Shown one piece after another: positions 52,934-64,000 of a stretch of DNA of 64,000 nt (position 1 is its first letter; each line of letters begins with the position of its first letter). The stretch lies in the NCBI RefSeq assembly GCF_010122465.1, contig NZ_WLZY01000006.1, positions 186,001-250,000 of the forward strand. The letters are read 5' to 3'. The notes under the pieces are model-generated. The model made no database searches. It saw nothing but the letters and a program-made list of their open reading frames with translations, and had not been told where the DNA came from. This stretch comes from Phytoactinopolyspora mesophila (lineage in GTDB: Bacteria > Actinomycetota > Actinomycetes > Jiangellales > Jiangellaceae). The position numbers and the translations under genes are program-made.

Positions 52934-54463
52934 CTACTCATAGATCGCTTCGGCGAACCACTGGCCGTTTTCGACGGTGAGCAGCCACGCGCGGCCGTCG
53001 TCGGTGGTGACCTGGAAGCGGGCACAGCGGCGACTCCTCTTCTGATCCCACCAGTACTCGCGCACCGGCCAGGGGCCGGTCCAGCCGGTGATGGCGAACT
53101 CTTCGCGGCTGACCACCAGCCGGGCGGGCGGAGCCGAAACGACCGAGCGGCCACTGACCGCCACCGGTGCGCCGGAGGCATCAAGAACCCGGACCGGACG
53201 CGGGCTAGGGGGCACGACGGACGGCGACGGCCGGGGGATACGTCCAGGCCACGGCCGATCGGCTGGTGGGGCGGAGGTGAGCGAATCTCCCCACGGCACC
53301 CGGACTACCTGTTCACCTGGTCCGCGGCCTCCGGCTGGGCGAGGCTGAGTGACGGCGGTATGGCCGAGCATCACCTGGATCCGGGTGGCTGCCCGGGCCA
53401 CCTGCTCGTCGTTCTCGGCTTGCCCCCACAGCGCCAGCTGCCGCCCGGTGTCGATCACTACCTGGTCCGGTGACAATGTCAGCCGGGTCAGGCTTCCAGT
53501 TAGCCGGCCCGCGGTCCGCCACGCGTCGAGTTGCCAGCGGACTCGCTCGGCCACCGCCAGGCTGGACAGCAGGCCGTCGTGCCGCCACAGCCGCGCCAGG
53601 CTCTGCCCGTCGGTGGTGCCGACTTCGACCTCGACCCGGACGCAGGCTAGCCCACGTTCGCCGAGCTTGGCGTGCATCAGGTCCGCGAGGCTCTTCGCGG
53701 CGAACACCGCGGGTTCGGACTGGTCGATGGGCGGCTCGAACTCGAGGTGCGCCGAGAGGTCTTCATCGGGTGGGCGAGTGGCCGGCGGCCGGGCCTCCAG
53801 GCCGGAGGCCAGCCGGTGGGCGGTGGCTCCCTCGGAGCCGAAGCGGGCGAGCACGTCCCGTAGCGGCAGATTCGCCAGCTGTCCCAGGGTACGGATGCCG
53901 AGCCGGACCAGAACATCGGTCAGCTCAGGCATGTCCAGGGCAGATGCCGGATGCGGCGCGAGAAACTCACGCGTGGACGCCGGCGGGACGACGCGTACGC
54001 CGTCGTCATCGTCCAGTGCGGACCGCGCCGCCAGATTGGCGGTGAAGGTGCCGTCGGCCACCCCGACCGCGCAGACGAAATCGCGGGCCAGCACGGCATC
54101 ACGCACCAGCGCCGCTACTGCTTCCTCGCCGCCGTAATACCGGCTCGGCCCGCGGGCGGGTACCGCGACCAGCCCGGGCCGGATCACCTCGACTCTCGGG
54201 CAGATATCTTCCACCACGGCCACGACGTGTTCGAATGCACGGGTCTCGCCTTCTGGGTCCTCCTCTAGAACGGTGACGTCGGGGCAATACCGCTGGGCAT
54301 CACGTAGCCGCTGCCCGCGGCGTACCCCAGCGGCTCTGGCCGCTGCCGTGCAGGCCGACACCCGGCCGGAGGCCAGCACAATGGCGGAGATCGCGGGGTC
54401 GGTTCCAGCGGCTGTCAGCGGCCAGTCGGGGCACCAGACGACCAAAGCGCGGGGTGCCGTCAT
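52934..54463 (-). CDS. imuB: ImuB-like Y-family DNA polymerase homologue
   Basis: 509 residues from the ATG at 54463. It is a catalytically dead Y-family relative that joins DnaE2 to the clamp for translesion synthesis. It begins APRALVVWCPDWPLTAAG, then AVPARGPSRYYGGEEAVAALV, LGIRTLGQLANLPLRDVLARFG (HhH-like) and a little-finger domain. The acidic metal-binding residues of active Y-family polymerases are not in the expected DxD/SxDE positions. It overlaps imuA by one base (TGATG). dnaE2 is not within the window. Confidence 0.88.
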   Translation of the reverse strand: MTAPRALVVWCPDWPLTAAGTDPAISAIVLASGRVSACTAAARAAGVRRGQRLRDAQRYCPDVTVLEEDPEGETRAFEHVVAVVEDICPRVEVIRPGLVAVPARGPSRYYGGEEAVAALVRDAVLARDFVCAVGVADGTFTANLAARSALDDDDGVRVVPPASTREFLAPHPASALDMPELTDVLVRLGIRTLGQLANLPLRDVLARFGSEGATAHRLASGLEARPPATRPPDEDLSAHLEFEPPIDQSEPAVFAAKSLADLMHAKLGERGLACVRVEVEVGTTDGQSLARLWRHDGLLSSLAVAERVRWQLDAWRTAGRLTGSLTRLTLSPDQVVIDTGRQLALWGQAENDEQVARAATRIQVMLGHTAVTQPRPAGGRGPGEQVVRVPWGDSLTSAPPADRPWPGRIPRPSPSVVPPSPRPVRVLDASGAPVAVSGRSVVSAPPARLVVSREEFAITGWTGPWPVREYWWDQKRSRRCARFQVTTDDGRAWLLTVENGQWFAEAIYE

Positions 54464-55170
54464 CACGCGACCTCGGCCGGATCGGCTTCTGCGCTGGCAG
54501 CCCTCTTGTCCTGCAGGTTCGTCACCGAGGCCAGTTCGGCACGGCTCACCGAGCCGTCGGCGTCCGGCAACCACAGCCAAGCCGAGCGTGGCCGTCCGCC
54601 CGTGCCGCGGCCCTCGGCGACCACTTTGACCCGGCGGCTGTGGAGATGGCCATGGCCTTGCTCGACACCCATCCAGGCCGACGATTCCACCCGGAGCCGC
54701 AAGGAAGCACCCTCCCAGGATCCGGCGACGATCAGAGTGGAACCGGCCTTGCGGGCCAGCGCGGTCAGCCGGCGGATGAGGCCGGTCTGCGGACGGGCCG
54801 GTGGCTGAAGGAGCACGGCATCGACGGCTTCCAGCAGGACGGCGGTGACATCGGCCCACCGGTCCGCGGGCTCATCCACCAGCAGGAGCCGGTCAAGGTC
54901 GCAACCCAGCTCAGCGGCGGCCATGGCGCCGAGCTCGGGCATGCCCACGATCCCGCACCAGGAGCCGTCCTGCGACGCGCCCGCGAGCAGCGCCAGCGGA
55001 AGTGCGCCGACGCCGTCCACGGTCATCACCTGGCCGCGGCCGAGCCCGGGAAGCAGGCCGTGAAAGGCGGGAAGTACCGGCAACCCAGTGTCTTCCGGCA
55101 CACTGACATCCGCCGTCCCGGCCACGCTGGCCAGCGCCTCTGCCGCTCGCTGACGTCTCGAAGGCCCCAT
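54463..55170 (-). CDS. imuA: ImuA/SplB-like mutasome protein
   Basis: 235 residues from the ATG at 55170; a longer in-frame start at 55206 would lie inside the SOS box. It is RecA-like but degenerate: GVGALPLALLAGASQDGSWCGIVGMPELGAMAAAELG and DRLLLVDEPADRWADVTAVLLEAVDAVLLQPP. It probably works with ImuB and DnaE2 in damage-induced mutagenesis. The exact pairing with imuB and the LexA box 11 bp upstream support this identity. Walker motifs are not conserved. Confidence 0.82.
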   Translation of the reverse strand: MGPSRRQRAAEALASVAGTADVSVPEDTGLPVLPAFHGLLPGLGRGQVMTVDGVGALPLALLAGASQDGSWCGIVGMPELGAMAAAELGCDLDRLLLVDEPADRWADVTAVLLEAVDAVLLQPPARPQTGLIRRLTALARKAGSTLIVAGSWEGASLRLRVESSAWMGVEQGHGHLHSRRVKVVAEGRGTGGRPRSAWLWLPDADGSVSRAELASVTNLQDKRAASAEADPAEVA

Positions 55171-55180
55171 ACCCCAACTA

Positions 55181-55196
55181 TCGAACTTGTGTTCGA
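55181..55196 (-). promoter_or_regulatory. LexA (SOS) box controlling imuA-imuB
   Basis: The 16-bp sequence TCGAACTTGTGTTCGA has perfect TCGAAC/GTTCGA arms around four bases and matches the actinobacterial SOS-box consensus. It lies 11 bp upstream of the imuA ATG. Confidence 0.88.
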
Positions 55197-55323
55197 GGAA
55201 AGTCAAGCGGATGGTGCTCGCGAAGATGTCGATTCCGGCGTCTCATGTTCGACGCATGGATGAAGGCGGGGTGTGCGCCGGGACAGCACGTCCTGGGCCC
55301 CGCCACTGATCGGAGCGATAGAC

Positions 55324-57103: not shown

Positions 57104-57140
57104 TTCTCGCCTGCCGCTTCGACTCGGCCCGGGGGTCGAT

Positions 57141-57185
57141 TTGTTCTGTGAGATCCGCATAGCTATCGTGTGAGAACGATTATCA
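57141..57185 (+). promoter_or_regulatory. Metal-repressed promoter with Zur/Fur-like box
   Basis: TTGTTC (57141-57146) and TATCGT (57164-57169), 17 bp apart, form a -35/-10 pair. TGAGAACGATTATCA (57171-57185) follows immediately, over the expected start of transcription. It has the TGA-N-AA...TT-N-TCA form of Zur/Fur boxes. It precedes the metal transport and chelatase operon by 23 bp. Confidence 0.6.
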
Positions 57186-57208: not shown

Positions 57209-58342
57209 ATGCGATCTCGGGAGGCGGAGCAGGGCGACGCCGCGCCCACCGGGACAGCACCCGAATCCGACACCACCGATACACGTGAGGGGGCCCATAC
57301 CCCTCCCAGCACCCGTGCCATCGTCGCCCGTCCGCGGATCCGCCGTCGGGCGATTGTCGCGCTGATCACGCTGACAACGTTGCTGGCTGGTGCCGTCATC
57401 CTGGCCGTGTCCATCGGCCCGATCCGGATTCCGTTCACCGAGACGATCCAGATCGTGCTCGGTGACCGGAGCGGCGAGTACGCCTCGATCATCGACACCA
57501 TACGCCTGCCCCGGGTGCTGGTGGGGCTCTTCGTCGGTGCTGCCCTGGGCGTGGCCGGTGCGGTGATGCAAGCCCTGTTCCGCAACCCGCTGGCCGAGCC
57601 GGGAGTGCTCGGCGTCTCCAGTGGCGCGGCGGTCGCGGCCGTCGCCGTGATCGTCACCGGAGCGACGGCGCGGGGCGCCTGGGTGCTGCCGCTCGGCGCT
57701 TTCGCCGGCGCGCTCGGTGCGCTGATTCTCGTCTACGCCGTCGCGAGTGCTCGCCGGGATCGGTCCATCGCCACGCTGCTGCTGATTGGGATCGCCCTCA
57801 ACGCGCTCTTCGGCGCGGTGGTCAGCGCGATGGTCACCAACGCCCCCGACGACGACACATTGCGCGGAGTCGTTTTCTGGCTCAACGGTGACCTGGTCGC
57901 CCGCACCTGGAGCCACGTGCAGATGGTGGCGATCCCGGTGGCCGTCGCTCTCGCGGCCGTGCTCGTCTTCACCCGCGATCTCAACGTCATGCTGCTCGGT
58001 GAGACTCAGGCCCAGGCCAGCGGCGTGGACGTGATACGGCTGCGCCGCGTCCTGCTGGTGCTCGCCGCAGTGCTCACCGGTGCCGCGGTCGCCGTCGCGG
58101 GCATCATCGGCTTCGTCGGTCTCGTGGTGCCGCACCTGATCCGTCTGGTCCTCGGCCCGGATCACCGGTTGCTGTTGCCGAGCGCCGCTTTGCTCGGCGG
58201 CACGTTCCTGGTGCTCGCGGATCTCGTGGCGCGGATGCTCTTCTCACCGATCACGCTCCAGACGGGCACCGTGACGGCGTTCATCGGCGCGCCGGTCTTC
58301 CTTCTGCTGGTTCTGCGCCGGCGGCGGGCGCCGCGAGCATGA
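57209..58342 (+). CDS. FecCD-type ABC transporter permease (iron-chelate/metal)
   Basis: 377 residues from the ATG at 57209, chosen because GGAG lies just upstream and the earlier GTG at 57170 would lie within the Zur/Fur-like box. After a polar N-terminus of about 45 residues come about nine membrane helices of the FecCD fold: SIGPIRIPFTETIQIVL, RLPRVLVGLFVGAALGVAGAVMQALFRNPLAEPGVLGVSSGA, and VAGIIGFVGLVVPHLIRLVLGPDHRLLLPSAALLGGTFLVLAD. It moves a siderophore, heme, cobalamin or metal chelate through the membrane. It is coupled by ATGA to the ATPase. Confidence 0.93.
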   Translation: MRSREAEQGDAAPTGTAPESDTTDTREGAHTPPSTRAIVARPRIRRRAIVALITLTTLLAGAVILAVSIGPIRIPFTETIQIVLGDRSGEYASIIDTIRLPRVLVGLFVGAALGVAGAVMQALFRNPLAEPGVLGVSSGAAVAAVAVIVTGATARGAWVLPLGAFAGALGALILVYAVASARRDRSIATLLLIGIALNALFGAVVSAMVTNAPDDDTLRGVVFWLNGDLVARTWSHVQMVAIPVAVALAAVLVFTRDLNVMLLGETQAQASGVDVIRLRRVLLVLAAVLTGAAVAVAGIIGFVGLVVPHLIRLVLGPDHRLLLPSAALLGGTFLVLADLVARMLFSPITLQTGTVTAFIGAPVFLLLVLRRRRAPRA

Positions 58343-59202
58343 GCACCTCGAACGGAGCTGCCCCGGCGGGCAGGAACGGAACCGGACCGCCCACGCGGGG
58401 GTTGCGGGCCGAAGGCGTTGGTATCGACATCGACGGCCGCGCCATCGTCCACGACGTGTCTCTGGTGGCTGAACCGGGCCAGGTGCTGGGGCTGATCGGG
58501 CCCAACGGGGCCGGCAAAACCACACTGGTCCGTGCCCTTGCCGCCGTCACGGCGCCCGCCAGAGGTGTGGTGACCATCGCGGACCGGCCGGTGCGGCGCA
58601 TGCAGGCCCGCGAGCGCGCCCGTCAGATCGCCTACGTGCCGCAGGACACCGCGCTGGATTTCGACTTCACCGCCCGCGACGTCGTCCTGATGGGCAGGCA
58701 TCCGCACGTGGGCCGCTTCGAGCCGCTGCGTGTCATCGACCACGACGTCACGGATGCGATGCTGGCCGAAACCGGAGCGTCGCACCTGGCCGGGCAGCTG
58801 GTCACCACGCTCTCGGGGGGTGAGCGCCAGCTGGTGCACCTGGCCAAGGCGCTGGCGCACCAGCCGGACGTGCTTTTGCTGGACGAGCCGGTGGCCGCCC
58901 TCGACCTCCGCCACCAGTTGCATGTCCTGCAGTTGCTGCGCCGCCAGGCCGCGCGCGGGATGGCAGTGGTGGCCGTGCTGCACGACCTCGACCAAGCCGC
59001 CCGGTTTTGCGACCGGCTGGCGCTGATGCACGCCGGCCGGCTCGTCGCCGCCGGCAGTCCACGTGAGGTGTTGACCGAAGAAAGTCTTGCCGAGGTCTAC
59101 GGCGTCCACGCCGTCGTCGCCGACGACGTCACGACGGGAGCTTTGCGGATCACCGCGCTCGACGTCCTGCCCGGCCTCGCGGCAACCGAAAAGAGGAAGT
59201 GA
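58339..59202 (+). CDS. ABC transporter ATP-binding protein, FecE/HmuV-type
   Basis: 287 residues; ATG at 58339 overlaps the permease stop. Walker A is GPNGAGKTTL (about 55-64), the Q-loop VPQDTALDFDF, the signature LSGGERQLVHLAKALA, Walker B VLLLDEPVAALD, and the H-loop AVLHDLDQAA. It drives the FecCD permease. It belongs to the heme/siderophore/B12-import branch; the sequence alone does not distinguish the substrate. Confidence 0.93.
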   Translation: MSTSNGAAPAGRNGTGPPTRGLRAEGVGIDIDGRAIVHDVSLVAEPGQVLGLIGPNGAGKTTLVRALAAVTAPARGVVTIADRPVRRMQARERARQIAYVPQDTALDFDFTARDVVLMGRHPHVGRFEPLRVIDHDVTDAMLAETGASHLAGQLVTTLSGGERQLVHLAKALAHQPDVLLLDEPVAALDLRHQLHVLQLLRRQAARGMAVVAVLHDLDQAARFCDRLALMHAGRLVAAGSPREVLTEESLAEVYGVHAVVADDVTTGALRITALDVLPGLAATEKRK

Positions 59203-59210
59203 AACACTCG

Positions 59211-61040
59211 ATGACTGCTGTATCCGAACAGGAAACGGGCCGCCGTTCCCGCCTGCGTACGGCCGGCTGGGTCCTGGCGCCCGTGCTCGCCATGGTGCTG
59301 GCCGCCTGCGGCAGCGACGACGAACAGCTCGCGGCCAGTGGCGACGAACCGGTCGCCACCGACGGGCCGGCCAGCGTGGCTGCCCTGTCCAGCGACACCG
59401 CGGAGGCCGTCCGCGCGCTGGCCGGCACCGACCGGCTCGTCGCAGTGCCTGCCAGCACCACCAACGAACACCTCGGAAATTACCCGGACGAAATGGCACA
59501 GGTGCCGAACCACGTGCCGCCCAGCGGCAATCTCGACCCCGAACAGGTGCTGTCGTGGGAGCCTGACCTGGTGGTGGTGACCGCACGCCACGACGGCGAA
59601 CAGGATGCCGGAGACCTCCTCGACCAGAGCGACGTGCCGCTGGTGACTATCCAGAACAACTGGGGCAGCGTCGAGCAGTTGCAGGAGAACTACGAGGTCA
59701 TCGCCGAGGCTCTGGGGACGCAGGAGCAGGCCGACGAGCTGATCGCCGGCATGGACGCGGATCTGGCCGAGATCGCGGCCCAACTCGACGACGTCGACGA
59801 GGAGCCAACCGTCCTGGTGCTGACCAACCAGGCGGAGAACCCGTTCATCGCCGGCCCCGACTCGATGTCCACGGATATCGTCCGGCATGCCGGTGGCACG
59901 CCGGCTGTCGAGGACGCCGGCATCGAACGAACGATGCCGGCCGATCCCGAGCAGATCATCCGACTCGACCCGGACGCGATCCTGCTGGTCGACGTGATGG
60001 GCAAGGGAGAGGAGTCGTTCGACGGGCTCCTGGGTAACGACGCCGTGGCTGAGCTGCCGGCGGTGGAAGAGGATCGCGTGCTGATGCTGCCCGGCCGTTC
60101 GGCGATGGCCGCGGCCGGTGTGCACGTCGTCGACGGTGTCCGCGAGATCGCCGCCTGGCTGCATCCGGACGTGGTAACCGGCGCTGCGGCGCCGGACGCC
60201 GCCGAGGACGGAGCGGAGCGTATCGCGGCGTTGTCCGGTGACGCCGCCGAAGTGCTGGTGGAGCTCGTCGGGCCGGAGCGGCTGGCCGTCGTGCCGGAGA
60301 GCACCACCACCGAGGAGTCGGGGAACAATCCGGAGCTGATGCGGCAGGTGCCGGACACCATACCGTCGGTGTCGAACATCGATCCGGAGCAGATCCTCGC
60401 CTATGAGCCGGATCTCGTGGTCCTCACCACCAGGCACGAGGCCGAGCAGGACGCGCGGGACCTGCTGACCGACAGCGGGGTCCCGGTGATCGCCATCGAC
60501 AACAACTGGGAGACGTTCGAGCAGATCGCCGACAACGTGACCATGCTGGGGGAGGCAGTCGAGGCCGAGGAGCGTGCCGATGAACTGGTCGCCGAGTTCG
60601 GGGATCGGATCGCCGAGGTCACCGCGGCAGTCGCGGACGTCGAAGACAAGCCGGTCGTCCTGGTCATGCTCTCCCTTGGTGCGGACAACCCGTACCTGAT
60701 CGGTCCTGACTCGATCAGTTCCGGAATCGTCCGCGACGCCGGAGCCGAGCTGGCGGTGGAGCAGACCGGCATCACGAAGAGCATGCAAGCCGACCCGGAG
60801 CAGGTGGTGAAAGCCGACCCGGACGCGATCGTCCTGATCAACACCGGCGGGCGGGGCCTGGATGATTATGCGGACCTGCTGGCCAACGAGGCGGTCGCCG
60901 GTCTCGACGCCGTCGTGAACGACGAGATCCTGCTGCTCGACTCCACCAAGGCCACGGCGACCGCCGGGCTTCGGACCGTCGACGGGCTCGAGGAGGTCGC
61001 CCGCTGGTTGCACCCCGGCCAGTTCGGGGAGGACAACTGA
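59211..61040 (+). CDS. Lipoprotein with two tandem FecB/HmuT-type substrate-binding domains
   Basis: 609 residues from the ATG at 59211; a GTG at 59199 that overlaps the ATPase stop is the alternative, and neither start has ideal spacing from GAGG. A lipoprotein signal ends LAACGSDD with lipidated Cys33. Two homologous binding domains follow, about residues 55-322 and 333-605. Both start ALSxDxAE, repeat LDPEQ-VLSWEPDLVV-TARH versus IDPEQ-ILAYEPDLVV-TTRH, and share a NNW segment, showing intragenic duplication. Single-domain proteins are the norm. A metal or macrocycle chelate is the likely ligand. Confidence 0.88.
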   Translation: MTAVSEQETGRRSRLRTAGWVLAPVLAMVLAACGSDDEQLAASGDEPVATDGPASVAALSSDTAEAVRALAGTDRLVAVPASTTNEHLGNYPDEMAQVPNHVPPSGNLDPEQVLSWEPDLVVVTARHDGEQDAGDLLDQSDVPLVTIQNNWGSVEQLQENYEVIAEALGTQEQADELIAGMDADLAEIAAQLDDVDEEPTVLVLTNQAENPFIAGPDSMSTDIVRHAGGTPAVEDAGIERTMPADPEQIIRLDPDAILLVDVMGKGEESFDGLLGNDAVAELPAVEEDRVLMLPGRSAMAAAGVHVVDGVREIAAWLHPDVVTGAAAPDAAEDGAERIAALSGDAAEVLVELVGPERLAVVPESTTTEESGNNPELMRQVPDTIPSVSNIDPEQILAYEPDLVVLTTRHEAEQDARDLLTDSGVPVIAIDNNWETFEQIADNVTMLGEAVEAEERADELVAEFGDRIAEVTAAVADVEDKPVVLVMLSLGADNPYLIGPDSISSGIVRDAGAELAVEQTGITKSMQADPEQVVKADPDAIVLINTGGRGLDDYADLLANEAVAGLDAVVNDEILLLDSTKATATAGLRTVDGLEEVARWLHPGQFGEDN

Positions 61041-64000
61041 TGACCACGGATCCGGCCGCGCCGGTACGACTGGTTACGCTGGGATTCGAGTCGCACGGCG
61101 CACTGGCTTTGCGGCAGGGCGTAGATCTCTACGCCGGCGGCGCCGGGCCGGAGCTCCACTGGACGCGGTTCGACCGGACCGTCCTGGCCAGTCCGGACCG
61201 CCTGGCGGAGGCGTTGCGCGACGCCGATGCGTTACTGGTGCACGCGGTGCATGACGTCCCGGATGCGGAGGCACTGGCCGGCGTCGTAGCGGCCGCACCG
61301 GAGCTCGCCGTCGTGCCGGTCCAGCCCAACGCCGTCGAGGTGATGGCGGCGACCAGGCTGGGCGGCTTCGGCACCGATCCGGCGCGGACGCGTACCGAAC
61401 TGGCGGCGGCCGCGGGCGCCGCCGCCAGGGCGGGCCGGCATGTCCCGCCTGAGCTGGACCAGGTCCTGCGTGTCCTGCCGGGCATCGGCCGTGAGCTGCC
61501 GCCCGAGGCGACAAGCCTGACCGCGCTGGCCAAGATCACCGAGGCGTTCCGGCACCTGTGCGCCGCGAACGTGGCTCTCGCGCTGGAGGTGCTCGTCGCC
61601 CGGCTCCGGCCAGGAGCGCTGCCCGAACCGGGCTGGCCGCGGCCGCTGCCCGTGGGCGGGTTCTGGCATCCGGAGCTGGACATCGCCGAGCGGTGGGACG
61701 AGTTCGAACCGAGGCTGCGGGGTCATTGGGCCGGGCGCGGCGCTGAACCGGTCGGGCGCGTCGTCCTGGTGACCATGCCCAGTCAGGTGCTCTCCGGCAA
61801 CGCGGCGCATGTCGATGCCCTCGTCACGGCGCTAGAGGCCCGCAGGATCGAGGTGATCGGCTGGCTCGGCAACCTCGAGGCACTCGGCGAGGCGTCGACC
61901 GTCACCGACGTGCCTGGGATCGACCTGTGGATCAATGCGAGCGGGTTCACCCTCACCGGCTCGCACGGCCAGCCGAACGTCGAGTTCGACATCGAGCTTC
62001 TGTGGTCTCGCAACACACCGCAGCTGGCGCCGGTGCCGCTGTTCCGGCAGAGCCTGCCCGAGTGGCAGGGCAGCCGGGTCGGGTTGACCCCGGCCCAGGT
62101 GGCCATGCAGCTCGCGGTTCCGGAGCTGGAAGGTGGCGCTGTCCCGCTGATCCTCGGCGGCCGGGATGAGCAGAGCGACGCGATGGTCCCGTTGGCCGCG
62201 CACGTCGACCGGCTGGCGGGAACAGTGGCGCGGACGGTCGCGCTGCGCCGCAAGGCCAACGCGGACAAGCGGGTGGCCATCGTGATCTTCGGCTACCACG
62301 CGGCGCACGGCGTGGTCGGGACGGCGTCGCACCTGGACGTGTTCGCCTCGTTGCACCGGGTGCTGCTGCGCCTCGCCGCCGCCGGCTACTCGGTGGACGT
62401 CCCGGAGACGCCGGAGGCGCTGCTCGACCTCGTCGTCACCGACGACGGTGGGGGCCGTCGCACCGAGACGAACGTCGCCGCCCGCTATCACGCCGCCGAC
62501 TACCTCCACGCGATGCGCCGGCATGCCGAGCGGGCCACACCCATGTGGGGCCGCCCTCCCGGAGACATCGACACCGACGGTGTTCACCTCGACATCGGCG
62601 GTGTCGTGCTCGGCAACGTCTTCGTCGGGGTGCAGCCGTCATTCGGGTACGACGACGACCCGGTTTCGCTGTTGTTCGCCGACCCGCCGGACTCAGCCAC
62701 CCCGAGCCACAGCTTCATCGCCTTCTACACCTGGCTCCACCAGGAGTTCGGCGCCGACGCGCTCCTTCATTTCGGCACCCACGGCGCGCTGGAGTTCATG
62801 CCGGGCAAACAGGCCGGGCTGGCCCCGGTCGACTGGGCGAACCTGCTGGTCCACGACCTCCCGCATTTCTACCTCTACTGCATGAACAACCCGTCCGAGG
62901 GGACCATCGCCAAGCGTCGCTCGCAGGCGACTCTGGCCAGCTACCTCACCCCGCCCCTCGACCGGGCCGGAACCTACGGCGTGCTGGCCTCGGTGAGCGA
63001 AGGGGTGCGCGACGCGCTGGGCCACGAAGAGCCGGGGCGCCGGGCGGCTGCCGCGCGAGACCTGGTCGAGCTGGCCGGCTCGGCCAACCTGGACGCTGAC
63101 CCGGCACTGGCCGAGACCGACCCCGACGCCTATCTGCGCCGGTTGCAATCCAGCGTGGACGAGGTAGAACAGGCATTGATCCCCATCGGCATGCACATCG
63201 TCGACCGCGGAATCGAGCCGGAGGAGGCCCTGGTCATTCTCCGGGCCGCCTGCGACTACGAGCGGCCCGACGCCGCGCTGCCGGCGCTCACCATCGAGTT
63301 CGAGCAAGAGCTGACCGGCGGCACACCGGTCACCAAGCTCCCGCCGGACGACGATGGCCGGATCCAGGTGGAGAACCGGCTCGCCGAGCTCGTCGACGCG
63401 GTGGTGGACGGGAAGCCGGCCGAGGACGACGGATCGCTGCCCGCCCGCTGGCACGGCTTCCTGACCGATCTGCGCGACCGGCTGAGCGGCAACGACGAAG
63501 CAGGGGCGTTGCTGCGTGCCCTGGACGGCGGATATCTGCGGCCCGGACCCGGCGGTGACCCGGCCCGGCAGCTTGCCGCGCTGCCCACCGGACGCAACAC
63601 GCACGCTCTGGACCCGCAACGGGTGCCGACGCCGCTGGCGATCAGCCGGGGTCAGGCCGGTGCCGAAGCGCTGCTGGAGTCCGCCCGGGAAGCTGACGGG
63701 CAGTACCCGGAGACGGTCGCGATCGTGTTGTGGGGAATCGACAACATCAAGAGCGGCGGCGAAGCGTGTGCCCAGGTGTTCGCGCTGCTGGGCGTCGAGC
63801 CGGTCGCCGACACGCTGGGCCGGGTCAGCCGGTTCCGGGTGATCCCGCTGGAAGAGCTGGGGCGGCCCCGGATCGACGTCGTCTGCACCGGCTCCGGGGT
63901 CTTCCGGGACGTGCTGCCAACGACTATCGAGCTGCTCGATCGCGCCGTACGAGCCGTCGCGGTGCTCGACGAACCCGCTGAGCAGAACTACGTGCGCGCG
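61040..64000 (+). CDS. Metal chelatase large subunit (BchH/ChlH/CobN family), 3' end outside window
   Basis: 987 codons are visible from the ATG at 61040 (TGATG with the upstream stop) and the frame is open to the window edge. It begins with a DUF3479-like domain, followed by FGYHAAHGVVGTASHLDVFASLH and FGTHGALEFMPGKQAGL. LPTGRNTHALDPQRVPTPLA and LWGIDNIKSGGEACAQVFALLGVEPVADTLGRVSR match magnesium-chelatase H. LEELGRPRIDVVCTGSGVFRDVLP and the final EQNYVRA continue the ChlH pattern better than CobN. It inserts a metal into a tetrapyrrole together with I/D-type subunits, which are not seen here. Confidence 0.9.
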   Translation, partial: MTTDPAAPVRLVTLGFESHGALALRQGVDLYAGGAGPELHWTRFDRTVLASPDRLAEALRDADALLVHAVHDVPDAEALAGVVAAAPELAVVPVQPNAVEVMAATRLGGFGTDPARTRTELAAAAGAAARAGRHVPPELDQVLRVLPGIGRELPPEATSLTALAKITEAFRHLCAANVALALEVLVARLRPGALPEPGWPRPLPVGGFWHPELDIAERWDEFEPRLRGHWAGRGAEPVGRVVLVTMPSQVLSGNAAHVDALVTALEARRIEVIGWLGNLEALGEASTVTDVPGIDLWINASGFTLTGSHGQPNVEFDIELLWSRNTPQLAPVPLFRQSLPEWQGSRVGLTPAQVAMQLAVPELEGGAVPLILGGRDEQSDAMVPLAAHVDRLAGTVARTVALRRKANADKRVAIVIFGYHAAHGVVGTASHLDVFASLHRVLLRLAAAGYSVDVPETPEALLDLVVTDDGGGRRTETNVAARYHAADYLHAMRRHAERATPMWGRPPGDIDTDGVHLDIGGVVLGNVFVGVQPSFGYDDDPVSLLFADPPDSATPSHSFIAFYTWLHQEFGADALLHFGTHGALEFMPGKQAGLAPVDWANLLVHDLPHFYLYCMNNPSEGTIAKRRSQATLASYLTPPLDRAGTYGVLASVSEGVRDALGHEEPGRRAAAARDLVELAGSANLDADPALAETDPDAYLRRLQSSVDEVEQALIPIGMHIVDRGIEPEEALVILRAACDYERPDAALPALTIEFEQELTGGTPVTKLPPDDDGRIQVENRLAELVDAVVDGKPAEDDGSLPARWHGFLTDLRDRLSGNDEAGALLRALDGGYLRPGPGGDPARQLAALPTGRNTHALDPQRVPTPLAISRGQAGAEALLESAREADGQYPETVAIVLWGIDNIKSGGEACAQVFALLGVEPVADTLGRVSRFRVIPLEELGRPRIDVVCTGSGVFRDVLPTTIELLDRAVRAVAVLDEPAEQNYVRA

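Follow-up and report, generated by a model that had tools for sequence, protein, structure and literature searches.

A predicted Zur operator ahead of an operon for an ABC importer and a Mg-chelatase-type H-I-D set in Phytoactinopolyspora mesophila

Many proteins of the chelatase superfamily fall outside the known roles in B12, chlorophyll and heme and have no reliable annotation (PMC12583661; papers given by PMC number are cited here for the parts of their text that were available). HmuS, an NADH-dependent, membrane-bound iron de-chelatase encoded in an uptake operon, removes iron from heme (PMC12583661). In Pseudomonas aeruginosa (PA1921-PA1925 and PA2911-PA2914) Zur controls the cobN-like gene PA1923 together with a FecCD-type ABC importer (PMC4542158); the role of the PA1923 operon was there called undetermined, and a review suspects PA1922-25 of the import of non-chelated zinc (PMC10393844). 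For actinobacteria a 21-bp Zur motif has been published, taaTGaNAANNNTTNtCANta, and the motif obtained by ChIP with Zur of Streptomyces coelicolor is tGaNNatSatNNtCa (both PMC5472717).

Here we describe how an operon of Phytoactinopolyspora mesophila compares with these systems. The operon begins near the end of the window, by which we mean the whole stretch of 64,000 nucleotides that was analysed, and it extends beyond the window end.

The operon and its start region

The operon comprises six genes, coding for a permease, an ATPase and a binding protein and then for the H, I and D subunits of a chelatase; with the starts as used, neighbouring genes overlap by 1-4 bases. The first-pass annotation spoke of a chelatase-transport operon, which was right in joining an importer with a chelatase and understated the case, since the full Mg-chelatase-type H-I-D set is present. 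The features are as follows.

57119..57139, + strand: terminator-like hairpin separating the operon from the GNAT-type gene upstream (consensus scan)
57141..57146, + strand: candidate -35 hexamer TTGTTC, weak (read from the sequence)
57164..57169, + strand: candidate -10 hexamer TATCGT, after a 17-base spacer (read from the sequence)
57171..57185, + strand: predicted Zur-type operator TGAGAACGATTATCA, presumably overlapping the transcription start (pattern search)
57209..58342, + strand: FecCD (BtuC-like) permease (family profile scan)
58339..59202, + strand: ABC ATPase, nearest curated models those of corrinoid and heme importers (family profile scan)
59199..61040, + strand: substrate-binding lipoprotein, a single chain containing two Peripla_BP_2 domains (Pfam; lipobox by eye)
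61040..64000, + strand: Mg-chelatase-type H subunit of 1243 amino acids, truncated by the window end, its gene ending at C6:250771 (profiles)
C6:250768-251697, outside the window: I subunit (AAA+), 309 amino acids (Pfam and motif)
C6:251697-253319, outside the window: D subunit (VWA, DASGS), 540 amino acids (Pfam and motif)

The permease is nearest to the BtuC, corrinoid and heme importer models, yet stays below its curated cut-offs, and the ATPase lies just over the cut-off of the heme importer model PRK13548 (262.6 vs 261). The binding protein (59199-61040) is an internal duplication, its domains each sharing 41% identity with the one-domain counterpart in G314, an actinobacterium of another family. 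ImuB-, ImuA' (RecA-like)- and DnaE2-type genes, recognised by eye, flank the region (52934-55206; L018:8436-11774), an arrangement that would fit insertion of the operon close to a mutasome cluster.

The consensus scan for terminator-like hairpins found one, vs 0.1 expected in shuffles. The promoter proposed in the first-pass annotation, TTGTTC-17-TATCGT, has its hexamers and its spacer where they had been placed, but it is weak: the two hexamers agree with the E. coli consensus in 7 of 12 positions, and a strict sigma-70 promoter scan reports no promoter there. TTGTTC is the weak part, as a -35 element, while TATCGT fits TAnnnT and is separated from the box by one base. With this promoter just 5' of the box, transcription would be expected to begin near 57176, within TGAGAACGATTATCA. 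The longest open reading frame of the permease begins at the GTG at 57170, touching the box; as the start we prefer the ATG at 57209, which follows GGAG.

The Zur-type operator and other sites of its kind

The box TGAGAACGATTATCA, read directly from the window sequence, occupies 57171-57185 of the + strand; it is the same 15-mer that had been noticed there before, and the TGA-N-AA..TT-N-TCA form then ascribed to it is borne out by an exact match to the 15-bp core TGANAANNNTTNTCA. In the 64-kb window this is the only exact match (mean of 0.01 in 100 dinucleotide-preserving shuffles). When up to two mismatches are allowed, the window has 4 matches vs 4.44 expected, and therefore the exact match alone is informative. 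The whole genome (6,512,012 bases in 27 contigs, searched with IUPAC patterns) contains two exact matches, TGAGAACGATTATCA being one of them, where a first-order Markov model of the window predicts approximately 0.48; with the second lying at a zinc locus, the site scores better than random background. With at most one mismatch there are 40 sites (2 exact and 38 with one mismatch) vs 12 for the reversed control pattern.

Of the published motifs, taaTGaNAANNNTTNtCANta agrees with TGAGAACGATTATCA in its core, and the S. coelicolor ChIP motif does so in 10 of its 11 set positions. Where the 21-bp motif has the outer bases taa...Nta, TGAGAACGATTATCA is flanked by GTG and GAG, so that none of these bases is matched. 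The flanks of the motif were not treated as defining because they are printed in lower case or as N in the available text (PMC5472717) and are absent from the S. coelicolor motif.

The gene context was read for 32 of the 40 sites, that in the window included. It should be noted that contexts here and in G314 come from a simple purpose-written gene finder, so that gene starts at these sites are approximate. The second exact site lies 21 bases 5' of a ZnuA-family gene and 193 bases 5' of a divergent gene for a Zur-like Fur-family protein. Sites with one mismatch are found between the L28-L33-S14 ribosomal protein genes and a CobW_C (COG0523-type) GTPase gene, ahead of an S18 ribosomal protein gene, and (L028, C14:132241) 56 bases 5' of the gene for an AztD-type zinc metallochaperone, whose identity is given by an NCBIfam score of 481.2 vs a cut-off of 400. 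L28-L33-S14, S18, the CobW_C GTPase and AztD are classic Zur targets. Many of the one-mismatch sites look like chance matches, given the 12 sites of the reversed control; several of the remaining ones are located inside genes. Among 1,255,404 bases of 64 loci with other CobN-like genes no exact match to TGANAANNNTTNTCA occurs.

Three further one-mismatch sites lie close to genes that resemble those for making or transporting metallophores: at L036 (C1:437725) a non-ribosomal peptide synthetase (NRPS) with a condensation domain lies opposite an AMP-binding enzyme, at L023 (C13:70454) an ABC transporter lies opposite an aminotransferase-decarboxylase pair, and at L035 (C2:499616) a FecCD/binding-protein cluster lies opposite an ABC pair. 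Possibly these sites mark a zinc metallophore system in the genome.

The genome has two Fur-family genes, so that a regulator of the family presupposed by the first-pass annotation is present. One product is Zur-like: its best matches are S. coelicolor 3mwm (184.5 bits) and Mycobacterium tuberculosis FurB/Zur 2o03 (151.6 bits), and Fur proteins trail with 68.1 bits and below. 3mwm, deposited as "putative metal uptake regulation protein", is what we take to be S. coelicolor Zur. The Zur-like gene adjoins the ZnuA-family gene; the regulator gene and the second exact site thus share one zinc locus with it, which strengthens the earlier suggestion of zinc as a plausible signal. On the evidence of motif and gene context, zinc rather than iron is supported as the probable signal for TGAGAACGATTATCA.

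The second Fur-family gene has to be considered, too, because the box could be bound mainly by its product, a PerR/CatR-like regulator, or could be a chance match. Boxes of the Fur family generally look alike, and about half an exact match per genome is expected by chance. The second protein, however, scores highest with PerR (45.2 bits), although only narrowly ahead of 3mwm (42.5 bits), and its gene adjoins a catalase-like gene (recognised by eye). Furthermore, the second exact site and several near sites are at zinc genes, and a similar box precedes the same operon in G314. Another main regulator, or chance, is therefore highly improbable.

The comparison with G314 carries most weight. The BchH model TIGR02025 is passed in only 2 of 393 genomes of the class, the present one and G314. 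G314 is the only one to have it among 341 genomes of its own family, and the present genome is the only one among 396 of a phylum sample at E <= 1e-280; the six-gene module is rare in the class. An ortholog of H is lacking in all four congeners, whose matches are 33-38% identical. In G314 all six genes recur in unchanged order (identities: H 56%, I 69%, permease 57%, binding protein 41%), and the H of G314 likewise passes the BchH and fails the CobN cut-off. The box TGAAAACGGTTTTCG lies 70 bases 5' of the G314 permease gene. The pattern TGAWAANNRTTNTCR has five exact sites in G314, that of the operon included; since the pattern was narrowed once the operon box had been seen, the operon hit is not independent. 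Three of the four other sites are at classic Zur targets, namely 5' of a ZnuA-family gene, between L31-L28 and CobW_C-S18 genes, and 5' of an L31 gene. At L181 (G314:C35:61712) an exact box is found 13 bases 5' of a gene for a CbiA/ParA-type ATPase.

Zur control is supported most strongly by the recurrence of a zinc-type box, ahead of this operon, in a second family. As judged from these sequence comparisons, TGAGAACGATTATCA at 57171-57185 is very probably an operator of the zinc sensor Zur, and the predicted repression of the operon by zinc is well supported.

Identity of the H, I and D subunits

The Pfam label of H is CobN-Mg_chel, which covers two kinds of enzyme. The curated models separate them: H is over the cut-off of TIGR02025 for BchH (1052.9 vs 829) and under that of TIGR02257 for CobN (582.8 vs 822.05). 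H is also under the cut-offs of two other Mg-chelatase H models (PRK12493, 1063.7 vs 1300; PRK13405, 876.1 vs 1166), as are I under that of BchI (367.7 vs 466.95) and D under that of BchD (160.1 vs 499.55). Among solved chains, compared at full length, H scores highest with cyanobacterial ChlH (753.4 bits), followed by CobN (437.7) and HmuS (9d26, 362.5). The genome has a separate CobN (C11), which is of the B12 type (1128 vs 822.05 bits on TIGR02257). BchM does not reach the TIGR02021 cut-off in either of the two genomes, this one and G314, the best score being 55.5 vs 158.9.

The motifs agree with this. HxGKHG and NDPGE are present in 19 of 19 B12-side CobN rows. HFGTHG is shared by H and four of five BchH rows; the remaining BchH row has HFGMHG and the G314 protein HVGTHG. 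NNPSE is found in all seven. In a quick tree of 28 rows H pairs with the G314 protein (SH-aLRT 100), apart from the B12-side rows; 21 extra loci had been hand-picked from more, of which 19 gave a protein passing the filter and two (L111 and L179) none. The tree carries a long-branch warning and has L063 and L103 also on the BchH side, and it was therefore used solely to place H apart from the B12-side rows. By the TIGR02257 cut-off, the motifs and the tree, H as B12-type cobaltochelatase CobN is ruled out: H, I and D are a Mg-chelatase-type set and not a B12 cobaltochelatase.

H is 36-40% identical to four BchH rows. Its cleft motifs are HFG(T/A)HG and DHxxE (DHYFE), the four aligned BchH rows having DHYFD or DQYFD. 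E660 and D1177, which we take to be catalytic residues of ChlH, align with E620 and E1088 of H if a 20-residue offset of the solved chain is assumed. Plasmid records matching H number 159, each with less than 60% identity (the ten best, 37.2-40.9%). From five that were inspected, three (H1, H2 and H6) have the match among bacteriochlorophyll genes and one (H40) among cobalamin genes; H11 is without annotation.

L063 and L103 encode H-type proteins of gammaproteobacterial metagenome-assembled genomes, with ChlI- and VWA-like genes nearby according to a simple gene finder; in that stretch no bacteriochlorophyll genes were recognised by eye, and L063 is over the BchH cut-off (1192.7 vs 829). They are possibly another non-photosynthetic Mg-chelatase-type set.

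The transporter could also be a siderophore or B12 importer whose partner chelatase serves iron or cobalt metabolism, zinc control being incidental. The models nearest to the permease and ATPase, and the narrow pass of the ATPase on PRK13548, would fit. Against it are that H is not of the CobN type, that Zur-type boxes precede the operon in two families, and that no riboswitch family reaches the gathering score in the window. We regard this as improbable. Regulation of the operon by B12 was rejected: only four tRNAs in the window reached the Rfam gathering score, and no riboswitches.

Proposed function and comparison with known systems

In the following scheme we infer Zur binding, the transcription start and the direction, substrate and metal of the chelatase. 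When zinc is sufficient, zinc-loaded Zur would sit on the predicted transcription start and block the tightly coupled six-gene operon; when zinc falls, Zur would leave TGAGAACGATTATCA and the operon would be expressed. It would supply a BtuCD-F-like importer, made up of the permease, the ATPase and the two-domain binding lipoprotein, together with all three subunits of a Mg-chelatase-type enzyme: H, the AAA+ protein I and the VWA protein D. A metal-carrying chelate would enter through the importer, and inside the cell the H-I-D complex would take the metal out or exchange it, in the way that HmuS acts on the iron of heme. Because of the precedent of HmuS, the Zur targets of P. aeruginosa, the zinc control and the B12/heme/siderophore class of the importer, we favour, tentatively and by analogy, a pathway in which a chelate is imported and its metal is then removed or exchanged; the most plausible such chelate is a zinc metalloporphyrin. 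Zinc-starved cells may thus use the chelatase to gain metal from imported compounds.

The main rival to metal removal or exchange is metal insertion. The operon would again be repressed by zinc, and the chelatase would work forward, putting cobalt or another metal into a tetrapyrrole in a zinc-sparing manner, the importer bringing in the ring or a metal chelate. Indeed, the biochemically characterised relatives ChlH and CobN insert metal, H retains the Mg-chelatase motifs and has its full I and D partners, and cobalt eases zinc starvation in P. aeruginosa, a species with a Zur-controlled cobN-like gene (PMC13083405). However, the genome has a separate CobN for B12 and no BchM over the cut-off, and all three chelatase genes are joined to those of an importer, in the style of an uptake system. 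A forward chelatase is possible, if rather unlikely.

Removal of metal can be put more specifically: the Zur-controlled importer would bring in a zinc tetrapyrrole (e.g., Zn-coproporphyrin), from which the AAA+-powered H-I-D complex, working in reverse, would free zinc. In this form the proposal is possible but doubtful. Zn-coproporphyrin (zincphyrin) is an actinomycete product, and a zinc-porphyrin substrate is therefore plausible but unproven. The literature search returned no paper with coproporphyrin as zincophore in these words in title or abstract. If true, reverse action of H-I-D on a zinc tetrapyrrole would be a route of zinc acquisition not found in the accessible literature that was searched.

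By the predicted operator, one chelatase is now tied to zinc starvation and, by the operon, to an importer and to I and D partners. What such a chelatase does under zinc limitation can thereby be tested on a single promoter, a single importer and an enzyme of three proteins. No report of a Zur-controlled H-I-D operon was recognised in the literature searched, as far as its text was accessible, which was mostly outside subscription journals.

With the actinobacterial Zur regulon (S. coelicolor and Corynebacterium glutamicum) the locus has the 15-bp core TGANAANNNTTNTCA in common (PMC5472717, PMC2823685), and the targets znuA, ribosomal protein paralogs and COG0523 carry the box in this genome, too. 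A chelatase H-I-D operon, in contrast, does not appear in the published target lists in their available parts (PMC6103462 Table 3, PMC2823685). In P. aeruginosa the genes lie at two loci with TonB receptors, whereas here they form a single operon that includes the I and D genes; PA1923 is likened to H by its description in the available text.

HmuS of the Bacteroidota hmu operon belongs to the same superfamily as H, and both are encoded in an uptake operon. The HmuS cleft motifs HFG(T/A)HG and DHxxE, as printed in the available text (PMC12583661), are present in H; the full HmuS motif ends in EFMGG, where H has EFLGG. H differs from HmuS in having AAA+ I and VWA D partners and a zinc-type operator and in being nearer to ChlH. 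With the bacteriochlorophyll Mg-chelatase BchH-BchI-BchD the locus shares all three subunit types and the pass on TIGR02025. It differs from that system in that its genes form an operon with an importer, that BchM is under the cut-off in both genomes, and that I and D are under the BchI and BchD cut-offs. With the B12 cobaltochelatase CobN, finally, H shares the Pfam family, but it has NNPSE and HFGTHG in place of NDPGE and HxGKHG and fails TIGR02257; a "CobN" label can mask a different enzyme.
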